A stretch of 64,000 nt of DNA from Salinibacter sp. 10B. Lineage in GTDB: Bacteria; Bacteroidota; Rhodothermia; Rhodothermales; Salinibacteraceae. The first letter of the stretch is position 1; every line of letters begins with the position of its first letter. A program made the translations under genes and the position numbers. Shown piece after piece: positions 18,362 through 44,696 of this stretch. The stretch lies in the NCBI RefSeq assembly GCF_002954405.1, contig NZ_MQWC01000004.1, positions 1,200,301 through 1,264,300 on the forward strand, given 5' to 3'. Below the pieces are notes generated by a model, which ran no database searches, was not told where the DNA came from, and was given only the letters and a program-made list of their open reading frames with translations.

Positions 18362-19450
18362 TCACGCACGGGGGGCAAAATAGGCCCTGATGAGGTCGCG
18401 ATACACGTCTACGGCCCGATGAACCTCCGCCGTCTCGATGTGCTCCTCGGCCGTATGGGACCGCTCGCTCAGTCCCGGTCCCAATTTCACCGCCGGGACA
18501 TCGTGGAGGAATACCCAATCGGAGCAGGTAGGCGAGCCAAAGGGCTCGGTGTCGGGAAGGGCCGTCTGGGCGGCCGTCGCGATGCGAGTGTCGTCCGGAG
18601 TAGCACACGGAACCAAGCGCTTGCTATACACCTCTACCTCCGCGTCCACGTGCTCCCGGAAGACCTGAATCAACTCGTCGTGCGTGTAGGCCGGCGTCGT
18701 GCGCACATCTACCGTAAAGACGCTATGTTCGGGAACGACATTGTTGGCAGCCCCCCCCTCAATCATCGTCACGGTCACGTTCGGTGATCCGAGGTAGGGG
18801 TCCTCGCGATCCAACGACAGTCCCTCGACCTGCCGAATGGCCTCCGCAGCCTTCGAGATGGCATTTTCGCCCAGATGCGAGCGGCCCGCGTGGGCGGATT
18901 TGCCATGGGTGTGAACCTTCAAGATGAGGAGCCCCTTCTGCGCGACGCAGGGCTGAAGCGACGTGGGCTCGCCAATGACCGCCGCATTGAGATCCGGCAG
19001 GTGCGGCCGCACGTCCTGGAGGCCGTTCTCCTTCCCGCCCGATTCCTCGTTCGTCGTGAGCGCCACCATGACCCGACCGTCGTCCGGGGTCCAGTCCTCC
19101 TCGGCCAGCGATAGCAGGGCCGTCGTCATCGCCGCCCCACTCGCCTTGGCGTCCACGCTGCCTCGCCCATACAGCTGCCCTTCCACCTGCACCGGATCGA
19201 AGGGATCGTATGGGTGGTCGCTGGAGGGCGGCACCACGTCGAGGTGGGTGTTGAGGAGAAGTGTGTCGTCGCCGCCGCCGATCGAGAAGACGACGTTGTC
19301 GTCCAGTCGCTCCACAGTCACCCCGTCGCGCTGAACATACTCTGCTACGAAACTAGCAATGTCAGACTCCTCTCCGCTGAGGGAGGGAAATCGAACCATC
19401 TCTTTCAGCAGTGCAACGGCGTCGGTGGTTTCAATCTGGGACGTGGACAT
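18362..19450 (-). CDS. argE: M20-family deacylase of the arginine operon (ArgE-like)
   Basis: This is a zinc-dependent M20 amidohydrolase. Its place at the end of an arginine operon containing an acylornithine carbamoyltransferase predicts that it deacylates N-acyl-citrulline (or N-acyl-ornithine). Metal-site motifs are visible: NTHLDVVPPS (first His and Asp), GRGSVDAKASGAAM (bridging Asp) and TNEESGG (catalytic Glu pair). The dimerisation domain runs from about residue 170 to 280. The start at 19450 (MSTSQIETTDAV) is the first ATG that fits the family; 19492 adds 14 residues without similarity. It is 362 residues long. Confidence 0.85.
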   Translation of the reverse strand: MSTSQIETTDAVALLKEMVRFPSLSGEESDIASFVAEYVQRDGVTVERLDDNVVFSIGGGDDTLLLNTHLDVVPPSSDHPYDPFDPVQVEGQLYGRGSVDAKASGAAMTTALLSLAEEDWTPDDGRVMVALTTNEESGGKENGLQDVRPHLPDLNAAVIGEPTSLQPCVAQKGLLILKVHTHGKSAHAGRSHLGENAISKAAEAIRQVEGLSLDREDPYLGSPNVTVTMIEGGAANNVVPEHSVFTVDVRTTPAYTHDELIQVFREHVDAEVEVYSKRLVPCATPDDTRIATAAQTALPDTEPFGSPTCSDWVFLHDVPAVKLGPGLSERSHTAEEHIETAEVHRAVDVYRDLIRAYFAPRA

Positions 19451-19529
19451 GGGAACGGGAGAACGATGTGAGAAACTCGGATTCAGCGGCACTGCTGCGC
19501 TCTACAATTCACGCATGCCGAAATACACA

Positions 19530-20327
19530 TTACGCAATAACCTCGGTGGCCTGGGACCGCGCGACCAGATCATCGGGGGCACAGACAAAGGCCTGGCTGA
19601 CGCCATTTCGGAGCGCATCCAAGGCTGTTTTCATTTTGACCCGCATGCCCCCCTCAATCCAGCCCTCCGCCACCCCTACGTCGAACGTCTCGGCATCGCA
19701 GGTGGAAAGGTGCGACTCCGGATCGTCGGCGTTGCGGCGCACCCCGCCGGTCCCGGTCACAAACAGCAATTCTCTCGCCTGAAGTGCCCCTGCAAGGGCA
19801 CTGGCCACCGTGTCGGCATTCACATTGTAAAGCTGTCCCTCCTCGTCGATGCCGAGCGGCGCAACGATGGGCATGATGCCCTGCGCCAGCAGGCTTTCCA
19901 AGAGCGACGAATCGATCGCCTCGATGTCGCCGACCCAGCCGAAGTCCACGCGTTCGCCGTTGATGTCCCAGGGCGGTCGCTTCGAAACCTGTACTTGACA
20001 GGAATCGGCCCCAGAAAGCCCGACGGCGGTGAGGTCGTGCGCGGCGGCCTGGGCCACGAGCTGCGTGTTGAGCGCTCCGCTCATGGTCCACTTTGCGATC
20101 TCCAAATCGAGGTCGGTCGTCACGCGACGGCCCTGTACGCGGCGCGGCGTGTGGTCGAGACGGTCGGCCATGTCGCTCATCTGTGTGCCGCCGCCGTGCA
20201 CAATTGTGACCGGCGCCTGCGCGCGGAGCGACTGGAGGGCGGACCAGAGCGCATCCATTCCGTCTGCCGTTTCCATCAAGGACCCGCCGATCTTTACGAC
20301 GATGGGGCTGCTGTTCTCGTTGCTCAT
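19530..20327 (-). CDS. argB: Acetylglutamate kinase
   Basis: This amino-acid kinase phosphorylates N-acyl-glutamate, the second step of arginine synthesis. KIGGSLM (near residue 12) and HGGGTQMS form the nucleotide and substrate Gly-rich loops, and the NADTVASALAGAL segment and the GIMPIVAPLG strand are characteristic. The start at 20327 (MSNENSSPIVVKIGG) places the first strand directly; an ATG at 20336 is possible. No N-terminal regulatory helix is present, so the arginine-inhibited hexameric form is not indicated. It lies between argF' and the M20 gene. Confidence 0.92.
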   Translation of the reverse strand: MSNENSSPIVVKIGGSLMETADGMDALWSALQSLRAQAPVTIVHGGGTQMSDMADRLDHTPRRVQGRRVTTDLDLEIAKWTMSGALNTQLVAQAAAHDLTAVGLSGADSCQVQVSKRPPWDINGERVDFGWVGDIEAIDSSLLESLLAQGIMPIVAPLGIDEEGQLYNVNADTVASALAGALQARELLFVTGTGGVRRNADDPESHLSTCDAETFDVGVAEGWIEGGMRVKMKTALDALRNGVSQAFVCAPDDLVARSQATEVIA

Positions 20328-20370
20328 TGCCGGCATTCGTAGCTGAGTGCTCAATTCAAACGGTGTGTAA

Positions 20371-20424
20371 GTTTGGATGTGTGTACGCATGTACGTTGCG
20401 AGATGAACCTACACACATACAAAC
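20371..20424. repeat. 15-bp inverted repeat in the argF'-argB gap
   Basis: GTTTGGATGTGTGTA (20371-20385) pairs with TACACACATACAAAC (20410-20424) at 14 of 15 positions across a 24-base loop. It lies between argF' and argB. No T-run follows on the minus strand, so it is more likely an RNA processing or stability element, or a repeat relic, than a terminator. Confidence 0.5.
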
Positions 20425-20481
20425 CCCCAAACTCCCCCAGTGTCATACAGCAACTTGTAGCGACTGAAAACCGAAATGCCG

Positions 20482-21504
20482 TCAGCCGAGGTCCCAGACG
20501 TAGTCAAGCAACGCCTTCTGCGCGTGGAGGCGGTACTCGGCCTGGTCGAGGTGGACGGCGTGCGATCCGTCCATCACTGCATCGTCCACCACCACGTTGC
20601 GGCGGACGGGCAGACAGTGCATGAATGCACCGTCGGTCGTCCGGGCCATTCGGTCGGCGGTGACCCGCCAGTCTCGACTGCTCGTCCGAATCTCTGCTTC
20701 TTTTTCCGGATCGGTGTACACGAGCGGCCCGCCCCAGGACTTGGCGTAGACCACGTCGGCGTCCTTCACCGCCGCGTCCAGATCGTCTGTTGCTGATACC
20801 GTAGCGCCGTGCGGATCGGCAAGGGACTGCGCGGCCTCCATCACACCGTCGTCCAATGCATGCGACTCGGGCCGGGCCACCGTCACGTTCATGCCACAGC
20901 GCGCGGCCATCTTGACCGTCGAGTTTGGCACGGCCATCGGGAGCGCCTTCGGGTGGTAGGTCCACGTCAGCACGAAGTCCTTGCCGCTGGGATCGCCGTC
21001 AAACCGGTCGGTGAGCAACGAGGCGTCAGACACCGCCTGACACGGATGGGCCCAGGCGGATTCCAGATTGATGACCGGTACGGTCGCGACCTCGGCCACG
21101 CGACGGATGAGCTCGTCGCTCTTGTCCGCTTCGTAGTCGGTGCCAGAAGCAAAGACGCGGACGCCCAGGGCATCGTGGTAGCGCGAGAGGACGCCGATCG
21201 CCTCCCGCACGTGCTCGGCGGCGTCCCCATCCATCACAGCCCCGTCCTCCCAGGCCAGATTCCAGGTGCCCTCCCCCGGCGTGAGCGTCGTGCTGTCGGC
21301 GCCAAGGTGGGCGGCAGCCACCTCCATGGACGTTCGGGTGCGGAGCGACGGATTGAAGAAGAGAAGCCCGATCGTCTTGCCATCCGCCGAATTGGTGCGG
21401 GTATCGTTCTCCTTATAACTGACGGCCGAATCAAGCACCGAGCGCCAGACGGAATCGTCCAGTTCGGAAGCGTGGAGAACGTGCCGAAGGTCGGAAGAGG
21501 ACAT
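20482..21504 (-). CDS. argF': N-acylornithine carbamoyltransferase (AOTCase/SOTCase type)
   Basis: This transfers a carbamoyl group to an N-acylated ornithine, giving N-acyl-citrulline. The carbamoyl-phosphate motif is FFNPSLRTRTSME. LTWTYHPKALP, YAKSWGGP and HCLPVRRN match the acetylornithine/succinylornithine class rather than ordinary OTCase (which has HCLPAHRG). In the segment MDGDAAEH, position 96 is Ala where the Xanthomonas acetyl enzyme has Glu92 (DTEEH) and the Bacteroides succinyl enzyme has Pro90 (DKPEH). That residue is known to set acyl specificity, so the true substrate is open. At 340 residues it is the usual length. Confidence 0.9.
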   Translation of the reverse strand: MSSSDLRHVLHASELDDSVWRSVLDSAVSYKENDTRTNSADGKTIGLLFFNPSLRTRTSMEVAAAHLGADSTTLTPGEGTWNLAWEDGAVMDGDAAEHVREAIGVLSRYHDALGVRVFASGTDYEADKSDELIRRVAEVATVPVINLESAWAHPCQAVSDASLLTDRFDGDPSGKDFVLTWTYHPKALPMAVPNSTVKMAARCGMNVTVARPESHALDDGVMEAAQSLADPHGATVSATDDLDAAVKDADVVYAKSWGGPLVYTDPEKEAEIRTSSRDWRVTADRMARTTDGAFMHCLPVRRNVVVDDAVMDGSHAVHLDQAEYRLHAQKALLDYVWDLG

Positions 21505-21664
21505 AAGCGTCGTTGCAGTTGTGTCGATCTGAAAAAACCTGTGTTTCGAGGTTCGCCCCTGTCTGCCTTGATGGAAACGATCGACGGCAGACGGCCGACC
21601 GCGGCCTGACGGCAGCTGCTCTCAGACCGAGGTGGCCAATTTTACCAACCCCAATCGTGGAGGG

Positions 21665-22855
21665 TTAAGCTGCCTCCGCCGGCGCGGGGGTTTCGTCCAG
21701 AGCCGTGTGCAATGCATCAGCGAACGTTTTCACGTCCTCATCGCTCACCACGAGCGGGGGCATCAGCCGCATCACGTGCGGGTCCGACGAGCCGCCGACC
21801 AGCACGCCCTGCTCGCGCAGCGCATCTTTGACCGGCCCCACTGGACGATCGAGCTTGAGGCCCATGAGACAACCACGTCCCCGCACCTCCTCCACGACCG
21901 GTCCCACATGCTTGCGCACCTGCTCGTGAATGGCCGTCGCCCGTGCCATCAGGTTCTTCTCCACCAGCGTCTCCAGTGTGGCCTTCACCGCCGCCATCGC
22001 CAGCATGCCGCCGCCGTAAGTGGATCCCTGATCGCCAGACTCTACGGTCATAGCCACCTTGTCGGTCACGAGCACAGAGCTGACCGGCACGCCGGCCCCG
22101 AGGCTCTTCGCCAGCGAGATGAGGTCTGGCGTGGTCCCAAGATGGTCGGCCATCGAAAAAGCCCCCGTGCGCCCGACGCCCGTCTGCACCTCATCGAACG
22201 CAAGGAGCGTCCCGTACGTGTCACAGAGGTCGCGAAGCCCCTGCACGAAGTCGGCGGGAATCTCCTTCATTCCCGCAATGCTCTGGATCGGCTCCAGAAG
22301 CACCGCCGCCACGTCCTCTCCCGCCAGCGCCTCTTCCGCCGCGTCGAGGTCGCCCACCGGAATCCAGGTCGTCTCCGGCAACACGTCGAGGTAGGGCGTG
22401 CGATACTTCTCGTCGTGCGTGGTGGCGAGGCTGCCGAGCGTACGTCCGTGCCACCCATCTTCCAGCGCCACAACGCCGGAACGCCCGGTGTACTTCCGCG
22501 CCAGCTTGAGCGACGTTTCGTTTGCTTCCGAGCCCGAGTTCGCGAAGAAGACCTGCCAGTCTCGCTCCTCGGGCGCGAGCGACGTGAGCCGCTCGGCGGC
22601 CTGTGCCCGAACCGGGCTGTGGGCCACGTTCGAGTAGAAGAGTAGCTTTTCGGCCTGCTCCTTAATCGCCTCCACGACCGGCGCCGGGCTGTGTCCAAGC
22701 AACGACACGCAGTGCCCGCCATAAAAGTCGAGGTATCGATTCCCCTCGGCGTCCCACACGTAGGCGCCGTCCCCCTCCACGAGCGCCATCGGCATCTTGC
22801 TGTAAGTAGGGATTTCGAGCTTGTTTTCGAGATTAACGATCTCGTCGGTAGTCAT
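21665..22855 (-). CDS. argD: Acetylornithine aminotransferase (class III PLP enzyme)
   Basis: This PLP-dependent transaminase converts N-acyl-glutamate semialdehyde to N-acyl-ornithine using glutamate. The class-III signature is intact: FDEVQTGVGRTG, then LISLAKSLGAGVPVSSVL, in which Lys is the PLP-binding residue. NSGSEANETSLKLARKYTG forms the cofactor phosphate loop. The N-terminus (MTTDEIVNLENKLEIPTYSKMP) fits the family with the start at 22855. At 396 residues it is normal length. It lies 67 bases downstream of argC and 160 bases upstream of argF'. Confidence 0.93.
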   Translation of the reverse strand: MTTDEIVNLENKLEIPTYSKMPMALVEGDGAYVWDAEGNRYLDFYGGHCVSLLGHSPAPVVEAIKEQAEKLLFYSNVAHSPVRAQAAERLTSLAPEERDWQVFFANSGSEANETSLKLARKYTGRSGVVALEDGWHGRTLGSLATTHDEKYRTPYLDVLPETTWIPVGDLDAAEEALAGEDVAAVLLEPIQSIAGMKEIPADFVQGLRDLCDTYGTLLAFDEVQTGVGRTGAFSMADHLGTTPDLISLAKSLGAGVPVSSVLVTDKVAMTVESGDQGSTYGGGMLAMAAVKATLETLVEKNLMARATAIHEQVRKHVGPVVEEVRGRGCLMGLKLDRPVGPVKDALREQGVLVGGSSDPHVMRLMPPLVVSDEDVKTFADALHTALDETPAPAEAA

Positions 22856-22922
22856 AGAGTCAGCTCAATTCGATCGATAGAAAGCAGAAACACAGACGCC
22901 GGTCGGCCGACGGCCGGTATTC

Positions 22923-23999
22923 TCACTCAGTCGTAGCAACTGTCCGTTCGGGCAAAAGCCCAGCGGTTTCCGAAAATCCGAGCGCCCGGTTCAGATTCTG
23001 GACGGCCTGGCTGGCGGCGCCCTTCAGAAGATTGTCGAGGGCAAAGCCGACGACGAGCGTGTCCTCGTCTCGCTGCCAGCCCACGTCGCAAAACGGTGTG
23101 CCCACGGCGGGCTGGAGCGACGGAAGCTCGCCCGGCGAATATCGGACGAACGGGGCGTCCGCGTAGGCGTCGTCAAACCAGTCATTCACCGCATCGGGAG
23201 AAAGCGGGGACGGCCAGTCGACCTGGGCGGTGCCCCAGATGCCACGCGTCCAGGGACCGGAGGCGGGCACGAAGTTGAGATTAACGTGCGGGCCTACGGT
23301 TTGCAGAATTTCGGGCCCGTGTTGGTGGGCCAGCACCTTGTAGGGCCGTACGTTGCCGTCACGGGTGGGAAAGTGGGTGGCGGAGGAGGGCTTCGCGCCC
23401 GAGCCAGACGCGCCGGTGAGGGCTGTCACGTGGACCGAGAAGGGCGTCTCTTGCACGGCCAGCGGGGCAAGCGCCAGTGTGATGCCGGTGGCAAAACAGC
23501 CCGGATTGGCAGTAATTTGGCCGGACGGTGCGCCGTCGCGCCATTCCGGCAGACCGTAGGTCGCTGTGTCGAGAAGGTCAGGCGCCGGGTGCTCCACGTC
23601 GAACCACTCCGGATAAATGTCAGCGTCTCGGAAGCGGAAGTCTGCACTCAGGTCCACGATCGGCCCCTCAAAGCCTGCCTCTAGAAGCTCCGGCACGAGG
23701 TGCATGCTCTGCCCGTGCTCCCCCGCCACCAGGACGGCGTCGAGACCATCAAGATCTACCTTATCCGGCGCAACAAACGATTGCTTCACCTGTCCGCGGA
23801 GCGAGGCGTGCGGCTCGGCGAGCGACTGCCCTGCAAACGTACGACTGGTGACGGCGGCCAGCGTGGCACTCGGATGGTTGGCCAGAATTCGAATCAGCTC
23901 ACCGCCCACGTAACTGGCGCCGTGCAATACGCCAACACGTGCCGAGCCGGTCGTAGATTCGGGAGGAGCGGACGGAGAGGTCGTGGTGGACAGTGTCAT
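22923..23999 (-). CDS. argC: N-acetyl-gamma-glutamyl-phosphate reductase
   Basis: This NADPH-dependent reductase makes N-acyl-glutamate semialdehyde. The Rossmann motif is VGVLHGASYVGGELIRIL. The catalytic Cys lies in TANPGCFATGI, and GAKPSSATHFPTRDGNVRPY carries the conserved loop. The start at 23999 (MTLSTTTSPSAPPES) leaves a short, probably disordered Ser/Thr/Pro leader before the first strand; further upstream codons cross an intergenic hairpin. At 358 residues it is of normal length. It is third in the arginine operon. Confidence 0.93.
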   Translation of the reverse strand: MTLSTTTSPSAPPESTTGSARVGVLHGASYVGGELIRILANHPSATLAAVTSRTFAGQSLAEPHASLRGQVKQSFVAPDKVDLDGLDAVLVAGEHGQSMHLVPELLEAGFEGPIVDLSADFRFRDADIYPEWFDVEHPAPDLLDTATYGLPEWRDGAPSGQITANPGCFATGITLALAPLAVQETPFSVHVTALTGASGSGAKPSSATHFPTRDGNVRPYKVLAHQHGPEILQTVGPHVNLNFVPASGPWTRGIWGTAQVDWPSPLSPDAVNDWFDDAYADAPFVRYSPGELPSLQPAVGTPFCDVGWQRDEDTLVVGFALDNLLKGAASQAVQNLNRALGFSETAGLLPERTVATTE

Positions 24000-24096
24000 A
24001 TTGGAAATCCTGCTGTACGGATGTTGAGGCGATTCCCGCAGCGCTATTGGAGTGTAGGATTGTGAGATTATCCGCCGGGCGTGATGAATGCCCTGC

Positions 24097-24125
24097 GTAG
24101 CGTCGTTGAATTCCAACGATGCTAC
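24097..24125. repeat. Intergenic hairpin between the P-loop gene and argC
   Basis: GTAGCGTCGTTG (24097-24108) pairs with CAACGATGCTAC (24114-24125), 12 bp with one G-T. The core AGCGTCGTTG recurs in the hairpin at 38299-38327 and, unpaired, next to the argF' start at about 21505. It has no T-run. It may be a repetitive palindromic element or an mRNA stability stem. Confidence 0.45.
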
Positions 24126-24273
24126 ACAACGGATATTGACCTCTGTGGAGAAAAACCTGTGCCCTGCTGTGTCGCTCCTGTAGTTAATCTCGCAATGTCA
24201 TAGCCCAACGGCGCTCCATACGGAACTCGCGGATTGAGCGAGGAAGAGACACAATGAATCGATGGACGCTGCA

Positions 24274-25428
24274 CTACGATGCGACGGCCACTTCTTCTTC
24301 CGAGGCCGACTCGTCCGCCGGCGTCCCGTCTTTCGTGGTCGACAGGCGTTCCGGGCCGCCGTTGTCCGGAAAGGCTGAAGCCGGCAACGTCTGCACGACT
24401 TCATCCACAAGCTCCGTGCTTTGCTGGAGGGCGTTGAGGGCGGTGATGCCGAGCCGCTGCTTGATGTACCGCCGCCCCACGTCGTTGTCGGTTACCGGTC
24501 CCGTGACGGCCGTGATGTCCGTGTTATAGCGCTGGGTAAAGAGCTCTTCCGCAGCCCAGGCCCCGGACAGGTCCGCGGCGGCCACCACGTGCGTCTCGAT
24601 AAAGGACTGCAGCTCCATGTCGGTCAGCAGATCGTCGACGCCGTAATAGCCGACGAAGCCATCGCCCATCTCCGCGACAATCACGTCCAGGTCCTCGGTC
24701 TCGTTGAGGTGTTGAATGATGCCCTTTGCGATGGGTGTAATCGCATCTTCCACCGTGCAGGCAATGCCCGCGTCGGTGAATGTCGAAACGGCCGTTGCCC
24801 CGTGCTCCCGCATCCGGCGCACATCCCGCATCAGCGACGCTCCCGTGAGCTTGGCGGCCCCCACCTTCAGCCCCATCTCCGACAGTCCCTCGACGATGAT
24901 GCTCGCAGCCTTCGTCTTGCCGGTATCCATCGCCGTTCCGCTTACATTGATGATGGGTACCGACGATTCAAGCCGGTGCACCATCTCCAGCGCGTCCTCC
25001 TGGATGCGGGCGTGGACCCACTGCCCGTTCCGCTGCACCATCACCGCCCCAATCACCTCCACCGGCAGTGCGGGGCCCAGGTTGGGATGGCCGGAGGTGC
25101 ACTCGCCCACGAGCCCGCCCAGATTGAGAATGTTGAGTGTGTCCCCCGCGGAGATGTGCCGGGGCACGCGCCCGCTATATCCCTTCAGGGCCTGCCGGCC
25201 CCCAAGCGTACACGCCAACAAGTCGCCTTTCTTAATGTGACGAAAGACACCGTCCTGACACTCCACTTCGTCGTACTGATCCTTCTCGTCGAGGGCTCGC
25301 ACCGCTACGACATAGCCGTGCTGGGCTACGACGTACGGCGAGACCGTGACCGGAGACTCAATGTTACAGTGCGCTGTACTCGAAGCGATTTTGTCGACAG
25401 CACCCGTCGAAAATGCGTCGTCAGTCAT
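24274..25428 (-). CDS. Unknown P-loop NTPase-like protein in the arginine operon
   Basis: I do not recognise a characterised family. Residues 1-130 look like a beta-rich domain (YVVAQHGYVVAVRALDEK, then RQALKGYSGRVPRHISAGD). A P-loop GTAMDTGKTKAA follows at about residue 165, with downstream strands GLKVGAAKLTG and DLDVIVAEMGDGFVGYYG, as in MobB/BioD/DUF1611-like nucleotide-binding proteins. The last 40 residues are acidic and likely disordered. It is the second gene of the operon, 48 bases after argG. No N-acetylglutamate synthase or argininosuccinate lyase is present in the window, so a role in the acylation step or in amino-acid sensing is conceivable but untested. Confidence 0.7.
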   Translation of the reverse strand: MTDDAFSTGAVDKIASSTAHCNIESPVTVSPYVVAQHGYVVAVRALDEKDQYDEVECQDGVFRHIKKGDLLACTLGGRQALKGYSGRVPRHISAGDTLNILNLGGLVGECTSGHPNLGPALPVEVIGAVMVQRNGQWVHARIQEDALEMVHRLESSVPIINVSGTAMDTGKTKAASIIVEGLSEMGLKVGAAKLTGASLMRDVRRMREHGATAVSTFTDAGIACTVEDAITPIAKGIIQHLNETEDLDVIVAEMGDGFVGYYGVDDLLTDMELQSFIETHVVAAADLSGAWAAEELFTQRYNTDITAVTGPVTDNDVGRRYIKQRLGITALNALQQSTELVDEVVQTLPASAFPDNGGPERLSTTKDGTPADESASEEEVAVAS

Positions 25429-25475: not shown

Positions 25476-26708
25476 CTACGTCGTGGCGAGATCCCGAGAC
25501 GAATCTTCCTTCTGTGTGCCCGACCGGGCCTGTTTTGCGAGAAGCGACGGTACGGCGGCAAGGGTGGTGAACCCCTCGGCGTCTCGTCCGTCCCAGAGGG
25601 CATTCTCTTCCCCGTACGTGGCCATACTGGCATCAAACATGGAGTGCGGACTGCTCACGCCCTGCACCTGCAGATTGCCCTTGTAGAGCTTCACCGTGAC
25701 GGTGCCGGACACAACGTCCTGGCTGTTGTCGAGAAATGCCTCTACGTCCCGCATTACGGGGTCGAAGTACTGACCCTCGTGCAGCAACCGTCCATAGAAG
25801 GCGCCCATTTCGTCCTTCTGTACCTGCTGCCACTTCGAGAGCACCACCTTTTCGAGCTCACGGTGGGCCGTAATCAGAATTTTTGCCGCCGGCGCCTCGA
25901 ATCCGATGCGCCCCTTGATGCCGAGAATGGTATCCCCAACGTGAATGTCGCGTCCCACACCGTGCTGCCCCCCTGTATCGTTCAGCGTTTCAACCAGCTC
26001 GACCCCTCCCATCGACTCGCCGTCCAACGCCACCGGTAGGCCATCTTCAAAGGTAATTGTGAGCTCCATCGGATCGTCCGGCGCCTCCACGGGCGGTACC
26101 GTATCCGGATAGGCGTCTTCCGGCAGCGGCTGCTCGCTGGTGAGCGTTTCCTTGCCGCCGATGGTGGTGCCCCACAGACCGCGATTGATGGAGTAATCGG
26201 TCGTGTCGGCTGGCACCGAGAAACCGCGCTCCTCCAAGTAGGCCGTAGAGTCCTTGCGGCTCAGGCCGTGACTGCGAATCGGCGCGATGACGTCCAGGTC
26301 GTCGCCCACCAACTGCAACGCCACGTCAAACCGCACCTGATCGTTGCCCGCTCCAGTAGAGCCGTGCGCAATCGTCGACGCCCCGACCGTTTTCGCCACC
26401 TCGGCTACGCCCCGCGCCTGCACGATGCGCTCCGGTCCCACGCAGAGGGGATAGACGCCCCCGCGCAGCACGTTGCCTTTGATGAGATGGCTCAGGTGAT
26501 CGTCATAGAGGGCCTGACGTCCGTCCACGACGTGATGCTCTGTGGCTCCGAGCTCCGTCGCTCGCGCCGCAATGGCCGATCGGTCCGCCTCCGTCATTCC
26601 TCCGGTATCGACCGTCACGGTGTGCACGGACGTGTCGTAGGTTTCTTGGAGGTACGGGACGCAAAACGAGGTATCGAGGCCACCACTGAAGGCAAGAACA
26701 AGGGCCAT
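25476..26708 (-). CDS. argG: Argininosuccinate synthase
   Basis: This joins citrulline and aspartate with ATP cleavage. The N-terminal PP-loop LAFSGGLDTSFCVPYL is diagnostic, followed by the citrulline/aspartate-binding segment GSTGAGNDQVRFDVA and the IDYSIN-like TDYSINRGLWG. The start at 26708 (MALVLAFSGGLD) leaves almost no leader, as usual for the family. At 410 residues it is normal; the C-terminal 20 residues are variable. It is the first structural gene of the arginine operon and is preceded by an Arg-rich leader peptide and a terminator (26750-26928). Confidence 0.96.
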   Translation of the reverse strand: MALVLAFSGGLDTSFCVPYLQETYDTSVHTVTVDTGGMTEADRSAIAARATELGATEHHVVDGRQALYDDHLSHLIKGNVLRGGVYPLCVGPERIVQARGVAEVAKTVGASTIAHGSTGAGNDQVRFDVALQLVGDDLDVIAPIRSHGLSRKDSTAYLEERGFSVPADTTDYSINRGLWGTTIGGKETLTSEQPLPEDAYPDTVPPVEAPDDPMELTITFEDGLPVALDGESMGGVELVETLNDTGGQHGVGRDIHVGDTILGIKGRIGFEAPAAKILITAHRELEKVVLSKWQQVQKDEMGAFYGRLLHEGQYFDPVMRDVEAFLDNSQDVVSGTVTVKLYKGNLQVQGVSSPHSMFDASMATYGEENALWDGRDAEGFTTLAAVPSLLAKQARSGTQKEDSSRDLATT

Positions 26709-26749
26709 GGAACGTGAGAGAGATTGAAAAAAAGCGTTGAGACAAATAG

Positions 26750-26779
26750 AAAAGGCGCTGGCTCGGAGGAACCAGCGCC
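26750..26779 (-). terminator. Attenuator terminator in the argG leader
   Basis: On the minus strand GGCGCTGG (26779-26772) pairs with CCAGCGCC (26761-26754), followed by TTTTCTATTTG. It lies 42 bases before the argG ATG and after the leader peptide stop. The 5' arm, with the adjoining GAC, can alternatively pair with an upstream segment at 26858-26865, which would abolish the terminator. Confidence 0.8.
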
Positions 26780-26814
26780 GTCAACGGCAGCGTCAAATGT
26801 CGGTAGCTATCCGA

Positions 26815-26928
26815 TCATTGCTCGTCTAAAGCGCCGGGTCCACAGATCTGCACGTACGACGGTCGGAGCCGTCGTGCGAAGAATCGTCGTCGGGACGTAC
26901 GGGCGCTATGGATCGGGTTGCGTTTCAT
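26815..26928 (-). CDS. Arginine leader peptide of the argG operon
   Basis: A 37-codon frame starts MKRNPIHSARTSRRRFF and ends GALDEQ. It contains eight Arg codons (positions 3, 10, 13-15, 19, 20, 22), including CGA-CGA-CGA and CGA-CGG; five of the eight are CGA. After codon 22 the Arg codons stop. The segment ACGACGG over codons 18-20 forms a hairpin with CCGTCGT just downstream, as region 1 and region 2 of a classical attenuator. Low charged tRNA-Arg would stall the ribosome over region 1 and so free region 2 to pair with the terminator's 5' arm. The likely promoter lies so close that the mRNA may be nearly leaderless. It needs confirmation by ribosome profiling or reporter data. Confidence 0.75.
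   Translation of the reverse strand: MKRNPIHSARTSRRRFFARRLRPSYVQICGPGALDEQ
26856..26875 (-). promoter_or_regulatory. Region 1:2 pause hairpin of the arg attenuator
   Basis: On the minus strand ACGACGG (26875-26869) pairs with CCGTCGT (26862-26856), a perfect 7-bp stem with a 6-base loop. Region 1 coincides with leader codons for Ala-Arg-Arg. Region 2 can instead pair with GACGGCG at 26782-26776, seven pairs with one bulged A. Confidence 0.65.
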
Positions 26929-26937
26929 GGTGACACT

Positions 26938-26966
26938 ACGGTACGGGTACGAAGAGAGTTTGTCAA
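26938..26966 (-). promoter_or_regulatory. Putative promoter of the arginine operon
   Basis: On the minus strand a perfect -35 hexamer TTGACA (26966-26961) is followed, 17 bases on, by TACCGT (26943-26938), a weak -10. Transcription would start within a few bases of the leader-peptide ATG at 26928. The remaining upstream stretch to 27076 is AT-richer and holds no gene that I can support. Confidence 0.4.
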
Positions 26967-27076
26967 CGGCGATTGCCCCCATTTTGATGACGAAACGATG
27001 AAGGGAAGCGCTTTCGAGGCCGCGCACCAAAGAACAATTGTAAATGTATCGACAAATGTCTCCGCAGATGTGTCGA

Positions 27077-44548: not shown

Positions 44549-44552
44549 GGCG

Positions 44553-44696
44553 TCTCATCAAGAACGACCGAGGGAACAGGCCCGATGACGTCGTGGCAAC
44601 CGGGTTCGCCCCCGCACAAATGAAGGCGAGCCGTCTTGGTGCCAACTCCTGCTCCGACTCCTCAGTTCTGCTGTGGTTTTCGGAGAAAGATGAGAG
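44553..44696 (+). promoter_or_regulatory. SAM-I (S-box) riboswitch aptamer
   Basis: The hallmark pieces are in order: P1 TCTCATC (44553-44559) with GATGAGA (44689-44695); the start ATCAAGAA; GACCGAGGGA; GGCCCGATGA; GGCAACC; P3 arms GGTTCGCC and GGCGAGCC; the joining GGTGCCAACTCCTGC; and CGGAGAAAGATGAGAG. S-adenosylmethionine binding to this fold generally represses downstream methionine or cysteine genes. The element is followed by a candidate expression platform and the CGS-like gene. I rate the match very high. Confidence 0.92.

Follow-up and report, generated by a model that had tools for sequence, protein, structure and literature searches.

A putative ribosome-mediated attenuator sensing charged tRNA-Arg in front of the arginine operon of Salinibacter sp. 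10B and related Rhodothermia

In a stretch of 64,000 nucleotides from Salinibacter sp. 10B (hereafter the window), the arginine biosynthesis genes are preceded by a short Arg-rich reading frame and a set of alternative RNA helices. We take these, with a probability of roughly 0.9, to form an attenuator of transcription that works through the ribosome, responds to charged tRNA-Arg and governs the arginine operon. Arginine synthesis is a textbook example of repressor control, with ArgR as the protein repressor of the pathway in many bacteria, and ribosome-mediated attenuation is the mechanism known from amino-acid operons of the trp, his and leu type. A preliminary description of the same DNA had already proposed that charged tRNA-Arg controls the operon by way of a leader peptide and hairpins that exclude one another. 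This proposal is supported by the Arg codons conserved in relatives, by covarying stems and by the alternative pairing found there. The anatomy of the region, its conservation, the coevolution of its alternative helices and the absence of ArgR were all computed here and are presented below.

Anatomy of the leader region and of the operon

The promoter, the leader ORF, the terminator and argG follow one another in this order on the minus strand of the window (Table 1). Two elements of the preliminary description were recovered unchanged from the sequence: a 37-codon minus-strand frame with eight Arg codons, five of them CGA and three consecutive, and a TTGACA placed 17 nt before a weak -10. The latter (TACCGT) matches the consensus at 3/6 positions, and a strict promoter scan of the window did not find the leader promoter. 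Gene order and strand suggest that the genes from argG to the deacylase gene are co-transcribed. The 384-aa protein encoded between argG and argC (24274-25428, minus strand) matched no family of Pfam or NCBIfam at E 0.001, and proteins resembling it also come after argG in several families. Elsewhere in the window, a SAM riboswitch was recognized on the plus strand (44552-44696; RF00162, 71.9 bits).

Table 1. Features of the arginine leader region and operon in the window.
Feature	Position	Strand	Basis or detail
Promoter	26938..26966	-	TTGACA 26966-26961, 17 nt spacer, TACCGT 26943-26938
Leader ORF, 37 codons, MKRNPIHSARTSRRRFFARRLRPSYVQICGPGALDEQ, 8 Arg codons (5 CGA), stop codon 26817-26815	26815..26928	-	sequence
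Segment 1, able to pair with segment 2	26893..26912	-	window RNA folds, swap test
Three consecutive CGA codons, main predicted stall site	26884..26892	-	sequence
Local hairpin ACGACGG/CCGTCGT right after the CGA run (1:2 hairpin of the preliminary description)	26856..26875	-	predicted fold
Segment 2, antiterminator strand within the leader ORF; core 26841-26830 GGACCCGGCGCT	26828..26850	-	folds, swap test
Segment 3, terminator 5' arm, alternative partner of segment 2	26768..26779	-	folds, swap test
Segment 4 (26764-26754) and T tract, terminator 3' arm	26744..26764	-	terminator prediction, covariation in relatives
argG, argininosuccinate synthase, first gene of the operon	25476..26708	-	TIGR00032, 337.9 bits, above cut-off
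Operon remainder: 384-aa protein, argC, argD-type transaminase, N-acetylornithine carbamoyltransferase, argB, ArgE/DapE-type deacylase	18362..25428	-	profile matches, none for the 384-aa protein

Conservation of the leader, its codons and its start

Since 91 of the 114 genomes of the order contained argG and three of these lacked the gene start, 88 upstream regions were available for comparison. A detector that required at least 5 Arg in 12 codons, followed by a terminator, was positive in 63/88 of them, as compared with 0/440 dinucleotide shuffles and 2/88 reverse complements. Positive loci occurred in 13/14 families of the order, and with this detector family f15 had a leader at 0/16 argG loci. 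Beyond the order, we used a laxer detector (4 Arg of 12 codons, run without a shuffle control) on 40 argG loci of the class that were hand-picked from among the matches listed, and 23/40 were positive (f20 15/15, f17 2/2, f21 2/2, f18 3/4 and f19 1/1). Even with the laxer detector, family f16 had a leader in 0/16 of the loci fetched. Genome-contig loci, mostly from other groups, were positive in 2/79 cases (79 of 80 loci scanned, L102 omitted), and these two, L033 and L068, are titled Rhodothermales and Balneolales.

Arg-rich leaders were further curated by eye, on promoter spacing and Arg codons, at 67/88 argG upstream regions of the order. Outside the curated set remain 21 loci: all 16 of f15, together with L142, L143, L020, L152 and L140; the last of these was positive by the detector yet was left outside, and L142 and four f15 loci were flagged by a lax filter, which we judged to be chance. 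A search without a threshold for hairpins that precede a T run placed the best one 20-59 nt past the stop codon (median 33) in each of the 67 curated leaders, with energies from -12.6 to -28.9 kcal/mol (median -20.6). The leaders themselves are 18-52 codons long and highly variable in sequence except for the Arg codons. A His codon at leader position 7, which overlaps segment 1, occurs in 22/63 distinct leaders. No second arginine leader was seen before argH in the 20 loci fetched; these include genomes with argH apart from argG (G008, G009, G028 and G038) and two loci with a flank shortened by the contig end (L220 and L223), the argH of the window's own genome lying outside this set.

The codon content of the leaders points to what is sensed. 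The 67 leaders contain 504 Arg vs 22 Lys codons and ten genes of the window 242 vs 100, a comparison in which, here and for the codons that follow, the leaders come from many genomes and the ten genes from this window alone. Because Lys is near absent from the leaders, it is Arg that has been kept and not charge. Among the Arg codons, CGA makes up 223/504 in the leaders vs 36/242 in the ten genes, and CGG 27/504 vs 80/242; in the window's family (f1) alone, 72 of 142 leader Arg codons are CGA and 10 are CGG. CGA, CGC and CGU are usually read by a single tRNA that carries inosine, and the leader may therefore be tuned to this tRNA-Arg isoacceptor. A reason why attenuator sensitivity depends on codon choice is given in the accessible part of PMC1183508.

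In the window, the -10 ends 9 nt upstream of the leader ATG, and the transcript is predicted to start approximately 3 nt ahead of this codon. Promoter spacing was analysed for 63 of the 67 leaders (the other four, two of them with a GTG start, were added later), and the best-scoring -10 ended 5-11 nt before the start codon in 47/63, a count obtained without a shuffle control. Larger gaps were present in 4/5 leaders of f13 and 6/6 leaders of f14. Leader transcripts would thus generally begin some 0-5 nt before the start codon. A Shine-Dalgarno-like 4-mer precedes 1/67 leaders, and likewise argG in 1/67 cases. To judge from the predicted start site, the arginine leader is probably almost leaderless. 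Further upstream, a AAGCGCTT-like palindrome is located at 27004-27015 in the window and at 20/67 loci overall, often approximately 85 nt before the leader start, and such sites appeared in mononucleotide shuffles with a frequency of 1.2%; this palindrome is a possible site for some other regulator.

Alternative helices and simulated ribosome positions

The 3:4 terminator with its U-tract, as given in the preliminary description, was predicted in the window at 26779-26754 with 11 pairs, 8 of them G-C, followed by the T tract, and 8/11 pairs had changed on both sides among 27 terminators from different families. Pairing with the terminator's 5' arm peaks in the stretch from 36 to 13 nt upstream of the leader stop codon. 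To assess this segment 2:3 pairing we exchanged arms between species: with their own arms all 67 leaders gave -13.6 kcal/mol vs -11.7 kcal/mol with those of other species, a difference reached in 0/20000 permutations. The same swap test gave a z of -4.8 for the 46 distinct arms and a median p of 0.0005 with one leader per family. Against dinucleotide shuffles, just 12/67 leaders had a z below -2, and since this energy test is weak we relied on the swap test for segment 2:3. For segment 1:2 in 62 distinct leaders, the own and swapped values were -18.9 and -16.6 (0/10000 permutations). The predicted folds of the window contain CCATAG/CTGTGG, AGCGCC/GGCGCT and GTCC/GGAC as alternative helices between segments 1 and 2.

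These results shift two of the pairings first described for the window. The 1:2 hairpin of 26875-26869 with 26862-26856 is indeed predicted, and the placement of segments 1 and 2 that it implied needs correction. This hairpin is present in L001-L003, and L004-L008 have other hairpins at that place, with energies from -4.7 (L004) to -16.3 kcal/mol (L008). In 61 leaders, local hairpins were slightly enriched over mononucleotide shuffles at ORF nt 36-78, with a mean z of -0.87 at 48-78. The window hairpin may be an RNA polymerase pause hairpin. For the 2:3 pairing, originally placed at 26858-26865 with 26776-26782, the comparison instead favours 26841-26830 with 26779-26768, which is nearer to the leader stop. 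The exact helix first proposed has -8.2 kcal/mol; unconstrained and with the same target, its region reaches -16.6 and the coevolving region -20.9 kcal/mol, so that energy alone does not exclude it. The original 2:3 pairing is not preferred because the coevolving partner in the swap test lies at 26841-26830.

We then considered how a ribosome would affect these helices, using simulations on RNA truncated after segment 3, with a ribosome footprint of 30 nt. Across the 67 leaders, mean pairing of segment 3 with segment 2 was 0.15 with no ribosome, 0.38 with a ribosome on the Arg core and 0.09 with a ribosome at the stop. Stalled ribosomes gave more pairing than no ribosome in 60/67 leaders and more than ribosomes at the stop in 59/67, the exceptions numbering 7/67 and 8/67, respectively. 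The gain in pairing upon stalling was 0.24 in the real leaders vs 0.03 in 201 shuffled controls. Families differed in the simulated outcome: the antiterminator was near absent in f7 and f12 (0.00 and 0.04), and in f14 stalling failed to raise pairing (0.50 to 0.44). For the leader of the window we obtained 0.70 with no ribosome, 0.75 when stalled and 0.03 at the stop. Since pairing is nearly as high without a ribosome as with a stalled one, segment 1 protects poorly there, and in the model a ribosome at the stop would do most of the switching in the window.

From these data we infer that the leader is translated, that ribosomes stall on it, and that termination takes place in the cell and responds to arginine. 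In the proposed mechanism, transcription would start a few nucleotides before the leader start codon and a ribosome would load on the emerging RNA end. At low arginine, a ribosome stalled on the Arg codons would cover segment 1 and leave segment 2 free; segment 2 would then capture the terminator's 5' arm, letting the polymerase continue into argG. With ample arginine, the ribosome would proceed via segment 2 to the stop and cover segment 2, allowing the terminator to form. If there is no translation, segment 1 would tend to hold segment 2, and the terminator would form as well.

ArgR, rival explanations and known systems

ArgR shares the target pathway and the signal with the proposed attenuator, yet it is a protein repressor, and it was nearly absent from the genomes searched. 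With PF02863 we found it in 0/27 genomes of the family, 1/114 of the order and 1/244 of the class (1/162 among the more complete ones), in a search in which 8/14 control genomes gave a match. The view that the usual ArgR control is missing from this lineage is thus borne out, ArgR not being found in 243/244 genomes of the class. In the sole genome that has it (G073, locus L169), argR lies just before a divergent argG, and no leader is present. The argG of this genome shows 48% identity, and the argR-argG pair looks like an acquisition by transfer that replaced the leader. Neither leader nor ArgR was found in f15 (16 loci) and f16 (16 loci fetched).

Other explanations of the leader have to be weighed against sensing of charged tRNA-Arg. 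Stretches of Arg and of CGA codons are able to slow ribosomes, and stalling could accordingly come from the polybasic nascent chain or from slow CGA-CGA pairs, in which case the attenuator would sense general translation speed. The strong Arg and CGA runs, with five CGA in the window leader, would fit this explanation. We nevertheless regard it as improbable, because Lys is equally basic and is nearly absent (22 Lys vs 504 Arg in the 67 leaders), while the genes downstream make arginine and the trpE leaders of the order bear Trp codons. A still smaller likelihood attaches to the idea that the leader encodes a small protein, rich in Arg, with a role elsewhere in the cell, the hairpin being merely its terminator. 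A terminator after every curated leader would agree with this, as would the recurrent His at position 7 (22/63 distinct leaders). Against it stand the wide variation in length (18-52 codons) and in sequence outside the Arg codons, and the lack of a Pfam match for the window leader at E 0.001, on which grounds the protein reading was judged unlikely; moreover, at the RNA level the frame's 3' portion shows coevolution with the terminator arm.

Lastly, the operon could be under another regulator, for example a riboswitch, a T-box or a protein that binds the AAGCGCTT site, with the leader being incidental. The palindrome upstream of the leader in 20/67 loci speaks for this. However, no Rfam family matched the arginine leader at the gathering cut-off, and no T-box or riboswitch was seen there at E up to 10, where only two weak matches of other kinds appeared, both on the opposite strand. 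The Arg codons and the alternative pairing are, moreover, kept across families, and we give control by another regulator very little credence. Returning to the attenuator that senses charged tRNA-Arg, we consider it rather likely that it is ancestral to the class and plays the role of ArgR for the whole operon, with a near-leaderless start and translation coupled to transcription from the first codons, that the trp operon is controlled likewise, and that an acquired argR-argG pair has taken its place in one genome.

In mycobacteria, polycysteine leaderless short ORFs reportedly act as operon attenuators, to go by the title of a 2020 paper by Canestrari. Judged by this title alone, they resemble the leaders described here in consisting of short ORFs with one amino acid repeated in runs and in being leaderless, as the arginine leaders probably almost are; they differ in the amino acid, cysteine, and in belonging to another phylum. 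The arginine leaders are like the trp/his/leu attenuators, as presented in the accessible part of PMC1183508, in having a leader ORF rich in codons for the operon's own product, alternative 1:2, 2:3 and 3:4 pairings and an intrinsic terminator before the first gene. Unlike those attenuators, they belong to another bacterial class, sense arginine and hold segments 1 and 2 both inside the leader ORF; in addition, they probably have almost no 5' UTR, and 66/67 have no Shine-Dalgarno-like 4-mer.

Leader peptides that sense arginine are already known, with other mechanisms. In Salmonella orf34-speF, ribosome pausing at consecutive Arg codons senses arginine (PMC6386406, in the part available). That leader, according to the same text, controls ornithine decarboxylase and works through Rho-dependent termination, exposure of the ribosome-binding site and RNase G, not through an intrinsic terminator before arginine synthesis genes. 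The Staphylococcus aureus rbfL leader peptide has rare Arg codons and is an arginine sensor as well; as far as the available part of PMC13009471 goes, it is translational, blocks the rbf ribosome binding site, and low arginine lowers expression. Within Bacteroidetes, the accessible part of a study on Flavobacterium psychrophilum (PMC9723704) gives clues to leader peptides before amino-acid operons and does not name the amino acid, and that of PMC7366714 describes short frames within Bacteroides leaders. In the available text of PMC1262725, arginine operons of Actinobacteria are reported to show no conserved upstream RNA structure, and T-boxes are given as the RNA-level control of arginine genes found elsewhere; a carA RNA motif of beta-proteobacteria appears in that of PMC8632094.

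The suggestion that an attenuator of this type had not been described held in the literature searched: among the matches listed, with subscription papers mostly outside, no attenuator of an operon for arginine biosynthesis came to light. In the parts available, PMC13236596, PMC3783181 and the other papers cited name none. PMC2965389 (2010) states, in the portion available, that such attenuators had been known from Proteobacteria and Actinobacteria alone until it added a case in Firmicutes, and the word 'arginine' is absent from its main text. The attenuator has probably been kept in most families of the class examined, with a specificity that is probably new and an initiation that is probably leaderless. 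In most families of the class the arginine sensor appears to be the translating ribosome. This would bring arginine biosynthesis, and this class, within the range of amino-acid attenuation and suggests how repressor and RNA control replace one another. It also raises the question of how attenuation proceeds when the leader peptide begins right at the 5' end and no Shine-Dalgarno sequence precedes it.

Within the genus, 5/12 other genomes gave no argG match (G001, G002, G005, G011 and G012). G002 and G011 are incomplete, the latter with a strong argH match, and G001, G005 and G012 had weak argH matches only, being possible arginine auxotrophs. Among other operons, one weak match to a His leader, probably due to chance, was obtained before hisG in 12 loci, and Leu leaders before leuA were found in 0/10 loci scanned (12 fetched). 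Before trpE, Trp-rich leaders with terminators were present at 11/12 loci fetched from the order (L230-L241), as scored with a permissive threshold and no shuffle control. In the window's own genome, the trpE leader (L233) has, by eye, a similar near-leaderless promoter spacing.
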